NCBI RefSeq assembly: GCF_000472905.1
Contig: NZ_AXAR01000003.1
Coordinates: 3,054 to 67,053, forward strand
Source of the DNA: Alicyclobacillus pomorum DSM 14955
Lineage (GTDB): Bacteria; Bacillota; Bacilli; Alicyclobacillales; Alicyclobacillaceae
Direction: 5' to 3'
Length of the DNA stretch: 64,000 nucleotides
A model generated the notes under the pieces. That model was not told where the DNA came from, searched no databases, and saw only the letters and a list, made by a program, of their open reading frames with translations. The position numbers and the translations under genes are program-made. The stretch's first letter is position 1. The number at the start of each line of letters is the position of its first letter. Shown here piece after piece: positions 36,408 to 45,536 of this stretch.

Positions 36408-37395
<988 letters not shown>

Positions 37396-37522: not shown

Positions 37523-38290
37523 ATGAGCAACACCTGGAAAAATTACATGCTCACCCTGATCAGCTTCTTGGTTGGCACGTCACAATTCGTCATCGTAGGT
37601 ATTTTGGACAAAGTCGCTGCTTCCGTCGGCGTATCGGTATCGGCGGCGGGACAGCTAATCAGCGTATCCGCGCTTGCCAACGCAATCGGAACGCCCGTCG
37701 TCATGGTGGCGACGGCGAAGATGGACCGGCGAAAGCGATTGCTATTGGCTCTCGCCATCATATTACTAGGCATCGCTTCGACGGTCGCCTTTCCGGGCTT
37801 CGGCTTCCTGATGGCCTCGTACGTCGTACTCGGGGTGGGAACGGGCGTCTTCGTCGTCACCGCCTATGCCACCGCTGCGAATCTGGCGCCTCCCGGGCGG
37901 CAGGGGCGAGCGATGTCCAACGTCTCACTGGGCTTTAGTGCGTCCCAAGCCCTCGCTCTCGCGTTGCTGTCCATCGTCGCCCGGACGACCGTCGTCGCCA
38001 TCCCGTGGCTCATGCTTTGGGCCATCGCTGCATGGACGTTCGGACCGACTCAGAACTTCAACTTACTCTCACTCGCTCCGGAAGCCTGCGGCATCGTGCT
38101 TAGTCTGAACAGCTCCTTCGTGCAGCTCGGCTTTGCCACAGGCGCCGCCATCGGGGGAATCGCCGTGGGTGGCTCGTCGATAACGGTCATCTGTTGGATC
38201 GGCGCCGCTGCGGTCGCCATCGCTCTCTTCATCGCGACCGTCTCCTTCGGGCTTACCCGTACGTTCTCAAAGCGCGTGGCGACGAAGTGA
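37523..38290 (+). CDS. MFS transporter remnant with an internal deletion
   Basis: The 255-residue product starts like a drug/sugar-efflux MFS protein (about four hydrophobic segments; motif A-like ATAKMDRRKRLLLALA, GVGTGVFVVTAYATAANL). After GFSASQALALALLSIVARTTV it reads WAIAAWTFGPTQNFNLLSLAPEA, which belongs to the last third of such proteins, and ends normally. Related transporters have about 390 residues and twelve membrane spans, so some 130 central residues are missing in frame. AGGAG precedes ATG 37523. The gene looks more GC-rich than its neighbours on the left. Transport function is doubtful. Confidence 0.7.
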   Translation: MSNTWKNYMLTLISFLVGTSQFVIVGILDKVAASVGVSVSAAGQLISVSALANAIGTPVVMVATAKMDRRKRLLLALAIILLGIASTVAFPGFGFLMASYVVLGVGTGVFVVTAYATAANLAPPGRQGRAMSNVSLGFSASQALALALLSIVARTTVVAIPWLMLWAIAAWTFGPTQNFNLLSLAPEACGIVLSLNSSFVQLGFATGAAIGGIAVGGSSITVICWIGAAAVAIALFIATVSFGLTRTFSKRVATK

Positions 38291-38476: not shown

Positions 38477-38740
38477 GTGATCTTTCAAATTGACAATCGG
38501 AATGATCCCGCGGCGTATGCCAAGGAGTTGAAATTCGGGAATCTGTTGCTGAAGCGAGCGAAGCGGGAATTAAGTCGTTTGGACTTACAGATCAAACAGG
38601 CTCATGAATACGGTACAGATAGTGCCGCCTTGCAGGTTCAGTTCGAACAACTTCAACAGTCCATAGCGGTGTTTGAACAAGAGTTAACGATGTTTGAATT
38701 GCAGTACGGAGATGGCATGGTGGACGCATCACAAGCGTAA
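38477..38740 (+). CDS. Small coiled-coil protein (87 aa), unknown
   Basis: No family is recognised. The 87-residue product is mostly one long amphipathic helix (LLLKRAKRELSRLDLQIKQA and FEQLQQSIAVFEQELTMFEL) with heptad-like spacing, so a coiled coil is likely. GTG 38477 is a guess, supported by AGGGG upstream; the frame is open from 38450. It stands at the left edge of the P-type ATPase locus and converges on the next small gene. Confidence 0.5.
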   Translation: MIFQIDNRNDPAAYAKELKFGNLLLKRAKRELSRLDLQIKQAHEYGTDSAALQVQFEQLQQSIAVFEQELTMFELQYGDGMVDASQA

Positions 38741-38762
38741 GCGTCCACCTCCCAGCCTCTCT

Positions 38763-39080
38763 TCAGTTAAAGTGGTCATCGACTTTTTCAGTACCATCGA
38801 TATTCTCGCTATTTTTCTCGGTATGAAGTTCCGTCACGGAAGCCTGCTCGTCGTGCGCTGGTTGATCCAATTGCCCGTCTGACTTCCAGGTAACGGTTGG
38901 TTGTTTCACCATACCAGCAGTGACTCCTCCCACTTGTTCGACCATATCCATCACACCAGCTGTACCTTTCACCATGCACCGGCGGATGGCCCTCCTTGCA
39001 TCGGGTGAAAGCGCGAGAATGACTCCCGCTGCCATCAGCGCAATGCCAAGTGGCGAGGAGATGTTCATTTTTTTAAACAC
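38763..39080 (-). CDS. Small membrane-anchored protein of the P-type ATPase locus (105 aa)
   Basis: A 105-residue protein with one hydrophobic segment near the N-terminus (SSPLGIALMAAGVILALSP, about residues 8-26), a basic patch (DARRAIRRCMVKG) and a long polar acidic tail. This layout resembles YtxH-type or DUF5132-type small proteins found near P-type ATPases; no activity is known. The GTG start at 39080 follows AGGGGGGC; the extra N-terminal ORF residues are not supported. It is transcribed away from the ATPase gene. Confidence 0.6.
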   Translation of the reverse strand: MFKKMNISSPLGIALMAAGVILALSPDARRAIRRCMVKGTAGVMDMVEQVGGVTAGMVKQPTVTWKSDGQLDQPAHDEQASVTELHTEKNSENIDGTEKVDDHFN

Positions 39081-39238
39081 GTTCAGCCCCCCTGTATCGT
39101 TTACCGTATATATGTAAACCACCTTTTCAGATTCTATACATTTCCTTTACATTTACCCGCTGACCGCGTATGCAACGTGCACCAGATGCACATAGTAACC
39201 CTTATTCGTGTTCGTGCGTAAGTGAGAGGGGGTTGCCT

Positions 39239-42200
39239 ATGGACGTGGAAATTACACATCAGTTGCCGGGGCGACTTCGGGTCATCGTCAAAGGACTACA
39301 AAACCAAGCCGTCCTTGCTTATCGTCTACAGGTGATGCTGAAACAAATCGACGGAATCAGGGACGTGCAGTGTAATCCGGATACAGGGCGTGCACTCATC
39401 TGTTTTGACGAACGCCGTCTGACTCCGGAGCGGGTGGTTCAAGCTATATGCTCCTGGACAGTGAAGGTTGCAGATACCGATGGTCGGGAAGCCGTTGCAG
39501 CCACCATTGAGGCCGATTTACAGCATGACCCGGCTGTGACAAAGGGCCAACAGGTCTCTCTGGCAAATCCCTATCTAGTACCAACGATTGCCTCGTCGGC
39601 TTTACTTGGTGGGCTATCGCTGAAACGGCTTTTCATGGGGCGCTCGGTACTCGCGACTTCTCCCGTGACGTTTTGGGCGAGCGCTGCCGTGTCGGTGGCG
39701 GCAGGCTATCCAGCTCTGCGGAGGGGTATGGAACATCTCATCCATCACCGCAAGGCATCACCTGACCTATGGATTGGACTCGGTACCCTCGCGATGGCAG
39801 CCGTTCGCGAAAACCTGGTTGCCTTATCTGTCATTACTGCGCTCAATTATGCCATGTATCGTCGTTACAACGTATTGTCTGCACCCGAGGACACGCACTT
39901 GCCCCCGGAGATTGAGCACCATAGCCGGCGACTGAGTCGTCTGAGCTTATGGCTGGCACCACTTTCGTTATTGCTTACGCGCAGTCCGTTACGAGCGATA
40001 GGTGTGGCGCTGGCGGCGAATCCGCGTCCCGTCATTTTGTCGCACAAGTACCGCTGGGCACAGGCGGAACGGGAAGCATATGAAAAGAATCTCCTTGTCT
40101 CCACACGGTGCGGGCTTTCGGCTTTGGCTTCGGCGAAGACGATTGTGTTGTCCGACGAGAACTTGATTCTCGGTAGTGAAGAAGAATGGCGCATTCAGCC
40201 CGTCAATGAAAAATTTGACGCTGGAAAAGCCACCGCCATCGCAGCATCCCTTGTTCAAAAATGTGACAATCACCCTTGGCGCTACGCCCTAGTACAAAGA
40301 GCACTCCGAGAGCAACGAACATTCCGTACTGCCTTTGACGTTGAATGTCAATCCGAGGGCATACGGGGCTCTATACAAGGGCACGAAATCCTTTTGGGGA
40401 CACGTGAATTTATCAAGAAGTACGGCGTTGACACGACCCCCATCCTCATGGAAGAGCGCCGCATGCGCCGTCAAGGTTTTTTCACGCAAATCCTAGTGGT
40501 AGAGAGCCACCCGGTCGCCATCTTTGGATGTAAGCGAGACATCGATTCGGAATGGAAGCGTATGTTCGACGAGTGGCAGAAGTACGGGTACTCTGTACGG
40601 AGCTTGCAAAAAGATCCATATGCCACAACCTTGTTAGAGCCGATGACGATGGATCAGTTGTCAAACGAACTTGAAATGGGCAATACCACCATTGTCATTG
40701 GGGATGAAGGTCAACTTTCCACGGATCATCCCTGCTTCATCCCCATCTCTCCACAAGATGGGAAGCGGTTGTCGGAAACTTTAGCATTTTGTCGCGAAAC
40801 AGGGCAGCGTTCACAGCGTGATGTCGCCATTGTGAAGGCATGGAACTTTGTTGGTGTAGGACTTGCTCTGGCTGCGCCTGTCACGGCACCTTTGATTGCC
40901 CTGACCGGTGATGTCGTTTCTATGTTCCTCATTGCGGCACAGGACTGGACAGGCCGTATTCGTGCCCGCATTCGTGAGAGACTTGATACATCCGATAAAA
41001 CGGTTTGTCAGGATGGTTCTCGCGGTCGCCGTTCCGGTGGTGGTCATTCCGAGCCATTTCATGCGCTGGAAGTGTCTGAGTTGTTGGATAAACTCGGATC
41101 AAGCATCAGCGGCCTTACGAGTCAACAGGTCTCGGAACGCCTTCAGATGTGGGGAGCCAACGTGTTGGCATCCCCTGAGCCACCGAGTTCAGTCCGTATC
41201 TTTTTGAACCAGTTCAAAGACCTTTCGATGTTGATTTTGCTCGGTACCGCGGGTCTTTCGTTTGTCATGGGAGAGCGATTTAGCGCCTTGTGCATGGGCG
41301 GTATCCTCGTGGTTAACGCATTGGTTGCCACTTGGCAGGAACTGAGGTCCACGACTGTCATCCAGGCGTTAAAAATGGAAGACAATTCACAAACCAAAGT
41401 GATCCGGGATGGAACGGAACAGTTGGTGTCCACGAAAGAATTAGTTCCCGGAGATGTTGTGCTGCTCGAATCGGGAGACAAGGTGCCCGCTGACATTCGG
41501 GTCATGGAGGCGTGGAATCTTGAAGTAAACGAAGCCATGCTCACGGGTGAATCTGTCCCTGTGGTGAAGGATACCGTGTTGCTTCCCCTGGACACGCCGG
41601 CGGGGGATCGATCAAACTCACTGTTCATGGGTACTGTGGTCACACGCGGTCGTTGTAAGGGAGTTGTCGTTGCAACGGGCAAAGCCACGGAGATTGGGCA
41701 ATTGGACTTGCTCATCAATGAACAGGAGGAAGAACCAACGTTCCTCCAACAGAGGGTCACACAAATTAGTAAACGCTTTGTGATTGGCGCCATCGTAGCA
41801 GCAAGTGTCGTCGCTGTTGCGGGGTTGTTGCGGGGGATACCGCCGGTGCAACTGCTCATTTCCTCCGTCACATTGGCAGCCTCGGCGATTCCGGAAGGTT
41901 TGCCGTTAACCATCACCGTGGCGCTCACCGCCGGCGTCTTGACGATGTCCAAGCGACGCGCGGTGATTAAAAAACTCGCCAATTTAGAATCGCTCGGAAG
42001 GGTTACGGTCATTTGTTGCGATAAAACCGGAACGTTAACGAAGAATGAAATGACGGTTAAAGAACTTGTGACCGTCAGGCACCGGATCCGTGTGACTGGA
42101 GACGCTCAAAGTGGGAAATTCTGTTTAAGTGATCAACCCGATGTGGCATTTCCGGTGCTCGACGATGCAGATACTCGGCAGTTGTTGACGATTGGGATGT

Positions 42201-43768
42201 TGTGTAACAACGCGCGTATTGGGGATGAAGGTACGGAACCAACGGGTGATCCGACGGAAGCCGCTTTGCTGACTGTGGCAGAAAAGGCGAACCTGCATCC
42301 AGAGATTTGGAAACGACAGCGGGAGATTCCATTCGATTCAGCGACGCGCAGCATGAGCGTCATTTGCGAAGAGGACCAACAGGCGCATGTCGTTTGCGAA
42401 GAGGGAGAGCGTTTACAAAGATGTACCATCTTTTCAAAAGGGGCGCCCGAGGAGATTTTACAAAAATGTACACATTACCTGGCTGAAGGCGAAGTTCGCC
42501 CGATGACGGAAGAGGTCAACCGACAGATCCGGGAAGAGAACTTGCGGATGGCAGATCAGGCACTCCGTGTCCTAGCGTGTGCGTATCGGAACGTGAATGA
42601 TGACGAAGATCCATTGCAAGTCGTCGACAATGACCTCATTTACGTAGGGTTAATGGGCATGATGGACCCACCGAAGGAGGGAGTCGCTACTGGCATTCAG
42701 GAAGCACGGAAGCTTGGAATTAAACCCGTCATGATCACCGGTGACCACCCCTTCACGGCTCGTGCGATTGCTGCCGAAATCGGGATTTTTCAACCGGGAG
42801 ACCGTATTTTGACGGGTATAGAATTGGACCAGTTGTCTCAGGAAGATTTGGATCGATTGATAGTTGACACGTCCATTTTTGCGCGAGTCTCTCCGGAGCA
42901 CAAATTGCGCATTGTAGAGGCATTTCAGCGGATTGGCGAAGTCGTCGCCATGACGGGGGATGGAGTGAACGATGCACCAGCCATCCGCAAAGCGGATGTT
43001 GGCATTGCAATGGGATTGAAAGGAACGGATATCACGAGAGGGACTGCTGGAATTGTCCTCTTGGAAGATCACTTTCACTCAATTGTGGATGGCGTGAAAG
43101 GTGGGCGTGCGATTATTGGCAACATCCGAAAGGCCATGGGGTGTTTGCTGGCAGGGAATCTTGCAGAAGTCTTGGTGACAGCCGTGTCCATCATCGTTGG
43201 CTTGCCGATGCCGTTGATTCCGCTGCAAATCTTGCTGATGAACATCCTGACGGACGCCATACCTGCAATGGTTCTCGCGACAGGACCACAAAATGACATC
43301 CCGGAAAAGCCCTACAAGGATGTAATTGACCGAGAACTCTACAGGACGTTCGCGACGCGAGGGTGCGTCCTCGGGCTTGGGGCTGTCGCTGTCTTCGCAG
43401 CGGCACTGGCGGCTGGGATGCCACTACCTTTAGCCCAGACGATGACGTATGCATCGCTGGTCGTGGGACAATTGATGCAAACCGTCGCCTGGCGGAGGTA
43501 TGGAACCGCAGGGAAGGGTTCCTTGAAGAAAGATAGAGTGTTACTCACGGCTACCATCGGTTCCTGGTTGGCTTTGGCTGCCACCATTTACGTCCCTGGG
43601 CTTAGAACCGTGTTTGCCACTGTACCACTTGGGATTCCGCATTGGGGCATGGTCTTCGCGGTGACCGGTACCTTGACGTGGATGGCACAACGGTGGATTG
43701 ATTGGTTTTCAAATCGGGAACGTTCGATGTCGCCCATGTTGAGACCCACTTATTGCTCTTCCATGTAA
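39239..43768 (+). CDS. Giant P-type ATPase: degenerate ATPase half fused to an active P2-type half
   Basis: A 1509-residue membrane pump. Residues about 1-75 form an HMA-like domain lacking CxxC (LPGRLRVIVKGLQ). Residues about 100-590 resemble a P-type ATPase core, but the DKTGT site is replaced by VLSDENLILG (about 303-312), so it cannot be phosphorylated. From about 600 a complete P2-type ATPase follows: MLTGESVPV, AIPEGLPLTITVAL in M4, CCDKTGTLTKNE (phospho-Asp near 928) and GDGVNDAPAIRKADVGIAMG. PEGLP resembles Ca2+/Mn2+ pumps; the ion is unproved. ATG 39239 follows GAGAGGGGG. The layout is like mycobacterial CtpI-type giant ATPases. Small genes on both sides form a locus. Confidence 0.88.
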   Translation: MDVEITHQLPGRLRVIVKGLQNQAVLAYRLQVMLKQIDGIRDVQCNPDTGRALICFDERRLTPERVVQAICSWTVKVADTDGREAVAATIEADLQHDPAVTKGQQVSLANPYLVPTIASSALLGGLSLKRLFMGRSVLATSPVTFWASAAVSVAAGYPALRRGMEHLIHHRKASPDLWIGLGTLAMAAVRENLVALSVITALNYAMYRRYNVLSAPEDTHLPPEIEHHSRRLSRLSLWLAPLSLLLTRSPLRAIGVALAANPRPVILSHKYRWAQAEREAYEKNLLVSTRCGLSALASAKTIVLSDENLILGSEEEWRIQPVNEKFDAGKATAIAASLVQKCDNHPWRYALVQRALREQRTFRTAFDVECQSEGIRGSIQGHEILLGTREFIKKYGVDTTPILMEERRMRRQGFFTQILVVESHPVAIFGCKRDIDSEWKRMFDEWQKYGYSVRSLQKDPYATTLLEPMTMDQLSNELEMGNTTIVIGDEGQLSTDHPCFIPISPQDGKRLSETLAFCRETGQRSQRDVAIVKAWNFVGVGLALAAPVTAPLIALTGDVVSMFLIAAQDWTGRIRARIRERLDTSDKTVCQDGSRGRRSGGGHSEPFHALEVSELLDKLGSSISGLTSQQVSERLQMWGANVLASPEPPSSVRIFLNQFKDLSMLILLGTAGLSFVMGERFSALCMGGILVVNALVATWQELRSTTVIQALKMEDNSQTKVIRDGTEQLVSTKELVPGDVVLLESGDKVPADIRVMEAWNLEVNEAMLTGESVPVVKDTVLLPLDTPAGDRSNSLFMGTVVTRGRCKGVVVATGKATEIGQLDLLINEQEEEPTFLQQRVTQISKRFVIGAIVAASVVAVAGLLRGIPPVQLLISSVTLAASAIPEGLPLTITVALTAGVLTMSKRRAVIKKLANLESLGRVTVICCDKTGTLTKNEMTVKELVTVRHRIRVTGDAQSGKFCLSDQPDVAFPVLDDADTRQLLTIGMLCNNARIGDEGTEPTGDPTEAALLTVAEKANLHPEIWKRQREIPFDSATRSMSVICEEDQQAHVVCEEGERLQRCTIFSKGAPEEILQKCTHYLAEGEVRPMTEEVNRQIREENLRMADQALRVLACAYRNVNDDEDPLQVVDNDLIYVGLMGMMDPPKEGVATGIQEARKLGIKPVMITGDHPFTARAIAAEIGIFQPGDRILTGIELDQLSQEDLDRLIVDTSIFARVSPEHKLRIVEAFQRIGEVVAMTGDGVNDAPAIRKADVGIAMGLKGTDITRGTAGIVLLEDHFHSIVDGVKGGRAIIGNIRKAMGCLLAGNLAEVLVTAVSIIVGLPMPLIPLQILLMNILTDAIPAMVLATGPQNDIPEKPYKDVIDRELYRTFATRGCVLGLGAVAVFAAALAAGMPLPLAQTMTYASLVVGQLMQTVAWRRYGTAGKGSLKKDRVLLTATIGSWLALAATIYVPGLRTVFATVPLGIPHWGMVFAVTGTLTWMAQRWIDWFSNRERSMSPMLRPTYCSSM

Positions 43769-43790
43769 TCGGGCAAGGGAGGACGAATCA

Positions 43791-44036
43791 ATGAACTGGA
43801 AGGCAGAGCAATGGGTAGCCAGCGTCGGACTGATGTTCGCCGCTTCCGTTCTGGTACCCAAACTGAAAACCGTCGCAAAACCGGCGATATCAGGAGGCTT
43901 CACGGGGGCATCCCTGGCAGGGAATGAAGTGCGAAAAAGATTTTCACTCGTCCGTGAAGAACTTGAGGATTTCATGGCGGAAGTTCAGTTTGAACGCTTT
44001 AAGAAACGAATTGACAGTGAAATGGAAGTGAAATGA
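43791..44036 (+). CDS. Small membrane-associated protein (81 aa), ATPase locus
   Basis: An 81-residue protein with an N-terminal hydrophobic stretch (VASVGLMFAASVLVPKL, about residues 9-25), a Gly/Ala-rich region and a charged helical C-terminus (RKRFSLVREELEDFMAEVQF). It resembles small DUF5132-like partners of HMA/P-type ATPase clusters, an assignment made by pattern only. GGGAGGA precedes ATG 43791, which is 22 bases after the ATPase stop, so it is part of the same operon. Confidence 0.7.
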   Translation: MNWKAEQWVASVGLMFAASVLVPKLKTVAKPAISGGFTGASLAGNEVRKRFSLVREELEDFMAEVQFERFKKRIDSEMEVK

Positions 44037-44043
44037 TTTCACA

Positions 44044-44271
44044 ATGAACGAGCAGATTTCGGAACACTTGGAACAAGCACTGCGACATTTAAGTGAAGCG
44101 TTGAACATCAGTGTTCACGCTGTTTTACAAGACACCAAGCTGAAGGCTCCGATTGGTCGCTTATGGGAACAATTCCTGGGTCGATTTTTCGATGCCATTC
44201 GGACCAAGAGCCGAGAAAGCAAATTAAATATACTGTCTTGGATATCGTTTGCGAAGATGTGGAGAGGTTAA
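44044..44271 (+). CDS. Small helical protein (75 aa), ATPase locus
   Basis: Not recognised. The 75-residue product is predicted helical (SEHLEQALRHLSEALNISVH, then IGRLWEQFLGRFFDAIRTKS) and has no clear membrane span. It starts eight bases after the preceding small gene, with a weak ribosome binding site (GGAAGTG about 13 bases upstream), so translational coupling is likely. The conserved neighbourhood, not its own sequence, ties it to the ATPase. Confidence 0.6.
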   Translation: MNEQISEHLEQALRHLSEALNISVHAVLQDTKLKAPIGRLWEQFLGRFFDAIRTKSRESKLNILSWISFAKMWRG

Positions 44272-44335
44272 GCGAAATCAGATTGGTCTCACTACGGGGT
44301 GGGTACACTAACGAAAACGAAAGGGGGTGACCCTA

Positions 44336-44701
44336 ATGTTTGAGCAGGTATGGAGAAACATGTTCGAAGGTGGATCGCTTTGGGCCGGTGTCATCAACGG
44401 TGGATTCGCGCAGTTGCAGGATACCATCGCGCTAACGAACGGGAAAATCAAGGCGGAAGATTACGCTGCGAATTCGACGAAGAACGTCTCCATGGCGATT
44501 GGAACCATGGCGGGCGTTGAATGTGGAGCCTTAGTCGGTACCGCCGTGATGCCCGGTTTTGGAACGATGATTGGCTCCATTGTAGGGGGCTATGTCGGAG
44601 ACCGGCTGGGAACCTACGCAGGCCAACAAGTGGGGAATATCGCATTTAAGGGTTCAAATCCAGGCGGAGGAACTTCTCCTTCGGTATCCGTTTCACAGTA
44701 A
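44336..44701 (+). CDS. Glycine-zipper protein (121 aa), ATPase locus
   Basis: A 121-residue protein with a C-terminal glycine-zipper region (ALVGTAVMPGFGTMIGSIVG then GYVGDRLGTYAGQQVG, about residues 66-101), a pattern that packs small-residue helices in membranes. The N-terminal half is amphipathic. ATG 44336 has GGGGGTGA six bases upstream; the open frame three codons earlier is not supported. It is last of the locus before a long hairpin terminator. A membrane scaffold or pore-like role is possible but unproved. Confidence 0.7.
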   Translation: MFEQVWRNMFEGGSLWAGVINGGFAQLQDTIALTNGKIKAEDYAANSTKNVSMAIGTMAGVECGALVGTAVMPGFGTMIGSIVGGYVGDRLGTYAGQQVGNIAFKGSNPGGGTSPSVSVSQ

Positions 44702-44765: not shown

Positions 44766-45536
44766 TCACGGGCCCGCAGACGGTAATCGCTCCTGGTAGC
44801 TGGAGGGAGGGGCGCCTGCGTGAATCTCATATTTTTTTACGAGAAGATAAATGTCTTCCGGACTCACATTCGGGCTTAATTTTGGGCCCCACTTCGCCGC
44901 TGAAAAGTACTGCACCACGAGTGAAGTGCATATCTTCTTATTTCGTTCCTCTGCTTGTACGAATCCCACCGGTAAATGAATCACATCATGCGTAACATAC
45001 CGCAAAATGTCGTCCGTCACGAGCCACCAATCGTAGGGCTCACCCGCGAGGCGCTTCATGTAGTCAATCCCGGAATTCCGTTGTTGTGGTGGGATTGGTG
45101 GTCGAAACACATCACACTGTTCATCGTTTACCGGTTCAATGGTGACGACTTTACCGTTTGCTTCAATCTTGGATTGCTTGTCCAATGCAATCGCCACGTG
45201 ATAATACTCGCGAACATGCGGGCCATCTTTTAGCCGCTGAATAAATTTGATGGATTCCGTTTTCCTGTTGCGGAGTTTCCGATAGAGAAGAATATCACCG
45301 GGTTCTACGATTTGGTTGCCTTCTGTTTTCTGATTCCCGATATACTTGCCGTAGGTGTATGTATCTCCCCCCTGAAGTGGTCCGTTTTTTTCCTCTCGTC
45401 CTCCGGAGATGCTCAAGACAAATATGGAAGAAACAATGACCATCCCCGTTATGTAAAGCTTTAGGATGAACGTGGGCTTGTGCACACGAGTCACGACGAC
45501 GAGAGTCAAAACGGCGAGCGTAATCATAAACGACAT
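44766..45536 (-). CDS. YiiX/YaeF-like NlpC/P60 superfamily hydrolase with membrane anchor
   Basis: A 256-residue protein with two N-terminal hydrophobic segments (about residues 3-15 and 24-43) and a permuted papain-fold domain. EPGDILLYR (about 77-85), YYHVAIALD with the catalytic His, IEANGKVVTIEP and the late CTSLVVQYF with the catalytic Cys give the YiiX pattern. Members are thought to be amidases or peptidases acting on lipids or peptides; the substrate is unknown. The ribosome binding site before ATG 45536 is weak. It lies between the ATPase locus and the sigma-54 regulatory genes, with no obvious link to either. Confidence 0.72.
   Translation of the reverse strand: MSFMITLAVLTLVVVTRVHKPTFILKLYITGMVIVSSIFVLSISGGREEKNGPLQGGDTYTYGKYIGNQKTEGNQIVEPGDILLYRKLRNRKTESIKFIQRLKDGPHVREYYHVAIALDKQSKIEANGKVVTIEPVNDEQCDVFRPPIPPQQRNSGIDYMKRLAGEPYDWWLVTDDILRYVTHDVIHLPVGFVQAEERNKKICTSLVVQYFSAAKWGPKLSPNVSPEDIYLLVKKYEIHAGAPPSSYQERLPSAGP

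Follow-up and report, generated by a model that had tools for sequence, protein, structure and literature searches.

Why would a bacterium keep, fused ahead of an apparently intact ion pump, the remains of a second pump? The question is raised by a locus of Alicyclobacillus pomorum DSM 14955 (positions 38477-44701 of the 64,000-nucleotide stretch of contig NZ_AXAR01000003.1 that was analyzed as a whole, here the window), where a giant fused P-type ATPase lies among five small genes. The first half of the giant is a decayed P1B metal pump and the second a P2A pump resembling Ca2+-ATPases, and every genome of the order in which the dead half was found carries two small single-span membrane protein genes at the same locus. 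With moderate confidence we read the dead half as an adaptor that would dock PacL-like scaffold proteins on a Ca2+ pump. The source is a 3.4-Mb Bacillota genome with Alicyclobacillus contaminans and A. tolerans as near relatives, both with matching contigs; a scan of genome contigs with a profile from three close rows returned these two as the only true relatives.

A dead P1B-type half ahead of a Ca2+-ATPase-like half

The giant gene is laid out as follows (aa, amino acids):

39239..43768, + strand: giant fused P-type ATPase, 1509 aa; ATG start at 39239 after GGGGG, one stop, a single DKTGT
39239..39463, + strand: HMA_2 domain, residues 1-75; LPGRLRV motif, without CxxC
39569..40963, + strand: dead P1B-type half, residues ~111-575; assigned from motif table, alignment and structure model
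41057..43765, + strand: intact P2A (Ca2+-ATPase-like) half, residues ~607-1509; assigned from Pfam and NCBIfam matches and motifs

The open reading frame (ORF) holds what the first-pass annotation had read in it: the 1509 aa, an HMA-like domain without CxxC, VLSDENL in place of the phosphorylation motif DKTGT and a full P2 half. The N-terminus matches HMA_2 (PF19991) with 48 bits, and Pfam matched no domain in the 500 residues between HMA_2 and the P2 half, not even E1-E2_ATPase. One ATPase half was rightly called dead, its catalytic motifs being gone: VLSDENL occupies residues 303-309, TGD and GDGxND are lost (GDEGQL is found), NPR (residues 261-263) stands instead of CPC, and the phosphorylation (P) and nucleotide-binding (N) domains are degenerate, with the HP motif of the N domain retained. 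When the half is aligned with intact P1B pumps of other Bacillota that bear HMA_2, a gap stands at the actuator domain, so there is no TGES either. The claim that this half had been kept at full size therefore does not hold, as the whole actuator domain is deleted. Judged from these changes, the first half should no longer pump, since it would not be phosphorylatable, has no actuator domain and presents NPR at the metal site.

The AlphaFold2 model of the dead half (mean predicted local distance difference test score, pLDDT, 81; predicted template modelling score, pTM, 0.64) had ATP7B, CopA and ZntA as its best Foldseek matches. VIA-align 2 superposed it on the ATP-binding domain of CopA with Z 18.6 and a root-mean-square deviation of 3.5 over 215 residues, and on the structures of CopA, CadA and ZntA with Z 16-18 over ~400 residues. 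When its HMA_2 and first helices are compared with plasmid records, P1B pumps from Rhodococcus and Pseudonocardia are among the best matches; the genes of these pumps directly follow DUF1490 genes, forming with them pairs of the PacL-CtpC type. CtpC-type pumps from DUF1490 pairs are ~40% identical to the intact P1B pumps that neighbour relatives of the window's system, and blastp with them recovers the dead halves (2e-10 for that of the window and 3e-41 for another, E-values from a small set). Because of these fold matches and of the blastp matches from CtpC-type pumps, a P1B ancestry is assigned, and the first half is best described as a decayed metal pump of CtpC/P1B6-like kind. We class it as pseudo-P1B rather than P1B, because its fold and homology are those of P1B pumps and a working catalytic site is missing; a P2-type origin of the dead half was rejected, model fold and blastp both placing it in P1B.

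The second half holds TGES, PEGL, DKTGT, KGAPE, TGDH and GDGVND together with a P2-type C-terminal membrane domain. With the PMR1-type Ca2+-ATPase model of NCBIfam it reaches 583 bits, under the 798-bit equivalog cut-off, and its best PDB match is LMCA1 (lmo0841), the Listeria Ca2+ pump, with 511 bits. Residues of the Ca2+ sites are present in transmembrane helices (TM) 4, 5 and 6, namely the Glu of PEGL at 885 (TM4), the Asn and Glu of GNLAE at 1306 (TM5) and the Asn-Thr-Asp of MNILTD after 1329 (TM6); residues of this kind are Ca2+ ligands by established SERCA chemistry. In TM8 a Gln probably takes the position of the SERCA Glu. The first-pass annotation is refined in that the dead half looks P1B-like and the live half Ca2+-ATPase-like. 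Our best guess, from the residues present, is that the P2 half exports Ca2+, with Mn2+ as a possible alternative ion. In two genomes of a sister family, described below, the unfused HMA_2-P2 gene adjoins genes for a Na/Ca-exchanger-family antiporter, VTT and TerC.

The two halves have not been conserved alike, as measured by mean pairwise identity among five Alicyclobacillaceae giants. The live half is 61-64% identical and the membrane core of the dead half, at 56%, comes near that level; HMA_2 (42%) and the last helices of the dead half (45%) follow, and the P/N remnant, that is the catalytic head, reaches just 32%. The membrane core and HMA_2 are being retained, and the head is drifting. NPR is invariant among the giants and is common to the headless version of the sister family.

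Small partner proteins and their co-occurrence with the dead half

Around the giant gene lie the following features:

38477..38740, + strand: coiled-coil protein, 87 aa; GTG start, preceded by GGGA; accessory, lineage-limited
~38763..39080, - strand: acidic-tailed membrane protein with a single span; transcribed divergently from the giant; PacL-like plan
39083..39238, no strand: divergent intergenic region; holds a sigma-G-like promoter candidate (suggestive only)
43791..44036, + strand: 81-aa protein with one span and a conserved EExED.xAExQFER tail; DUF5132/DUF6110-like
44044..44271, + strand: 75-aa helical protein; family phylum-wide, mostly adjoining HMA_2 ATPases
44336..44701, + strand: glycine-zipper protein, 121 aa from ATG 44336; PF13488, 4e-7

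The coiled-coil ORF is placed beyond the divergent single-span gene, and the 81-aa, 75-aa and glycine-zipper genes lie 3' of the giant. The single-span gene most likely starts with GTG at 39080 behind GGGGGG, the point at which its homologues also begin; it does stand by the giant, as had been noted, but is divergent and outside the operon.

Co-occurrence was examined in an order sample of 59 genomes, 18 with the dead half and 41 without it. Single-span and 81-aa families were each found in 19 genomes: all 18 carriers of the dead half plus, for the former, one match close to a contig start and, for the latter, one weak match in an incomplete genome. For either gene the Fisher exact test gives p 3e-14, a statistic that ignores kinship, and dead half, single-span gene and 81-aa gene share one locus in 18/18 carriers. 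The link of the dead half with these two genes is far above chance. The survey had been proposed in the first-pass annotation, which named a lack of co-occurrence as the contrary outcome; the reverse was found, both small membrane genes being present in every carrier. All five small partner genes that it listed exist, but only two of them, the single-span and the 81-aa genes, are constant across both families of the order. In the giant's own family, 5/5 genomes have the single-span, 81-aa and glycine-zipper genes along with the giant, 2/5 have the 75-aa gene and 2/5 the coiled-coil gene; a homologous piece of the coiled-coil gene occurs at the same place in A. tolerans (L036) only. What flanks the cluster varies between genomes (A. 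tolerans has the murein-synthesis gene cluster there, A. contaminans a transposase-like gene), and therefore its genes move together as one unit.

The two constant proteins share one plan, read from their sequences, of a single TM helix and a charged helical tail; their profiles are mutually related (hhalign 95%) and their genes are paired with an HMA-bearing P1B-type ATPase. In a phylum sample of 398 genomes, the 75-aa family is present in 28, with ~20 matches near an HMA_2 ATPase and the others orphan or by a single-span gene. The 75-aa protein was rejected as an obligate partner on account of several orphan copies.

Three neighbours of the locus were also recorded in the window. At 36411-37395 an aldo/keto reductase gene runs in two overlapping frames near 36900 (a frameshifted pseudogene or a sequencing error); at 37523-38290 an MFS transporter (major facilitator superfamily) of just 255 aa is apparently internally deleted; and at 44766-45536, on the - strand, a 256-aa membrane-anchored protein resembles by eye permuted NlpC/P60-like enzymes and gave no Pfam or NCBIfam match.

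Separate, fused and headless forms in Bacillota

The sister family, in 13 genomes, has a headless dead half of 365-463 aa accompanied by the same two small genes; its P2 gene lies elsewhere, at a different locus. At L038-L050 (e.g. L038:6498-9130) the stand-alone headless pseudo-P1B gene and two PacL-like single-span genes are often found by bshC/mraZ and a cell-division gene cluster.

Across the phylum sample and the loci read out, the forms are graded. At L088, L092 and L093 a separate P1B pump with DKTGT and a damaged TGES adjoins a divergent HMA_2-P2 pump. Two loci seem to encode both heads in line, with DKTGT in the P1B and the P2 halves and a damaged TGES in the first: an apparent fused protein at L099:2258-7141 (G081, a single-contig genome), and L094:1980-7006 (G206), where HMA_2 is in an overlapping other frame, by frameshift or assembly error. 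Fused proteins with a dead first half adjoin an intact separate P1B gene at L084 and L085, and have no separate P1B gene beside them at L087 and in the window's family; at L086 the dead first half has a gene of its own (609 aa), in line with that of P2. In a tree of the P2 halves, whose deep branches are long, fused and unfused forms are intermixed. Fusion, fission or both therefore took place more than once, and a single origin of the fusion was rejected. A wider reading, which we offer tentatively, is that P1B and P2A Ca2+ pumps, both bearing HMA_2, constitute an unrecognised two-pump machine of Bacillota that shares small scaffolds; several lineages would have fused the pumps, after which the P1B head would repeatedly have become a non-pumping adaptor.

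Other proteins recur at these loci. A helical protein of ~229 aa is encoded at L086:8894-9583, L087:9256-9945, L093:6143-6829, L094:10762-11511 and L096:7384-8088, with 14-36% identity between loci and no Pfam match for the L086 copy. At L100 and L136-L140 two more neighbours of HMA_2-P2 genes (~150 and ~260 aa) carry repeated D[IV]KREV motifs, again with no Pfam match for the L139 pair. Separate clusters with free-standing HMA_2 proteins of 110-220 aa are found in genomes that also have the pump system (G145:C17:675000-679000, G212:C19 and G261:C1:907000-910000); in G145 and G212 the small HMA_2 proteins adjoin a P1B-size frame (~720 aa) with an HMA_2 match, and one HMA_2 copy has an in-frame TGA. 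These clusters are possibly of ferrosome type.

A proposed adaptor for PacL-like scaffolds and the competing readings

CtpH and CtpI of M. tuberculosis are FUPA24 P-type ATPases (TC 3.A.3.24), which, like the giant, have about double length, a long N-terminal part and a P2-like C-terminal half that contains all the catalytic motifs (PMC3573892). They have been called uncharacterised and isolated (PMC10654040). The literature consulted gives their N-terminal part no dead-P1B identity and describes no partner genes; by description they are putative kin of the giant. None of the plasmid records covers 80% of the giants, and no full-length relative was found among them; a search of the accessible literature returned no description of a P1B-P2 fusion, of a pseudo-pump half or of these partner genes. 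On the partner side, PacL1 scaffolds and stabilises CtpC, contacting its N-terminal end (PMC9374683), and PacL proteins assemble multi-pump platforms (PMC13043812). These PacL-CtpC platforms or effluxosomes (DUF1490) combine an HMA-bearing P1B pump, to which the dead half is homologous, with single-span charged-tail proteins; in the giant, however, the P1B part is a dead one joined to a Ca2+-type pump. The PacL-like DUF6110-P1B6 pairs of Firmicutes share phylum, pump kind and the weak DUF6110/DUF5132 matches, but their pumps are live P1B6 and none is described as P2-fused or P2-paired. LMCA1 and SERCA/SPCA resemble the P2 half, with all its motifs and Ca2+-site residues, and differ in that the giant has a fused dead P1B half, a SERCA-like TM5 Glu where LMCA1 has Ala, and Gln at the TM8 Glu position. 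The ferrosome (fez) has a live P1B-6 ATPase, Fez partners and iron granules, and a live P1B is absent here. We class the system as a FUPA24-like giant ATPase with PacL-like partners, its FUPA24 side being set by description.

Considering that: (i) the dead half keeps the N-terminal HMA-like domain and the membrane core, the parts that would meet the PacL-type scaffold in such P1B pumps; (ii) the pumping parts have been lost, and (iii) both PacL-like partners are present in every carrier, fused or not, we favour an adaptor model. In the model, the dead P1B half is retained as a membrane adaptor ahead of the P2A pump. Its HMA_2 domain and helices would bind two scaffolds, the 81-aa protein and the single-span protein encoded divergently, and these would stabilise the Ca2+ pump and cluster it in membrane platforms, in the way that PacL1 acts on CtpC. 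The P2 half would export Ca2+, perhaps Mn2+, from the cytosol. Several points weigh against this model. Matches of the single-span and 81-aa proteins to Pfam DUF5132, DUF6110 and DUF1490 are all under cut-off, the best (DUF5132 2e-4, DUF6110 0.006) being in a distant homologue; hhalign against PacL (DUF1490) gives 3% for the 81-aa profile and 32% for a wider set; and the small proteins could do another job for the dead half. Given these matches and the weak profile comparison, the small proteins were not assigned to PacL directly; they also have no His metal-binding tail.

The retention of HMA_2 and of the P1B membrane core in cis with the pump, and an NPR at the former metal site that is invariant even in the headless version, would also suit a dead half that senses a metal or ion and acts in cis on the Ca2+ pump, by autoinhibition or gating, with the small proteins as phospholamban- or KdpF-like regulatory subunits. 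This is rather unlikely, since the HMA_2 has no CxxC and since in the sister family the dead half is unfused and the P2 gene lies at another locus, so that strict cis regulation is not general. The graded decay series across the phylum could instead mean that the dead half is a mere decaying remnant of what was once a two-headed pump, in the course of being lost. Between genera, however, the membrane core is far better kept than the head (56% vs 32%), NPR does not vary and the headless remnant is maintained as a separate gene with its partners in 13 genomes, all of which makes mere decay very improbable. These same facts, a conserved core with a drifting head and the persistence, beside the same partners, of a headless version that is not fused, agree with the structural or regulatory role that the first-pass annotation had suggested for the dead half.

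Compatible with the adaptor model, and improbable in our estimation, is a role in sporulation, in which the pump would be made in the developing spore and move Ca2+ for loading of the spore core. The promoter candidate, CGTATG-N18-CATAGTA, is located 72 nucleotides 5' of the giant start, and sigma-G-like sites precede the giant in 5/5 family genomes, with 0/300 shuffles as good in sum, the consensus being an informal one and the motif having first been spotted by eye; single-locus percentiles are 0.01-0.16. No sigma-G-like enrichment is seen 5' of the sister-family genes. SpoIVA is present in 33/33 carriers tested, but the phylum sample has it in 336/398 genomes (84%) regardless, and its presence was dropped as evidence for the link.

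The adaptor model bears on giants of the CtpH/CtpI type, which have been listed as unassigned and uncharacterised for more than 10 years. If their N-terminal part were likewise a dead metal pump serving as adaptor, their size would be explained and a testable role provided. The separate, two-headed, dead-headed and headless forms would constitute an unusually complete record of the passage from pump to scaffold, and the idea of the PacL platform would reach beyond metal pumps and mycobacteria, to calcium pumps and spore-forming Bacillota.

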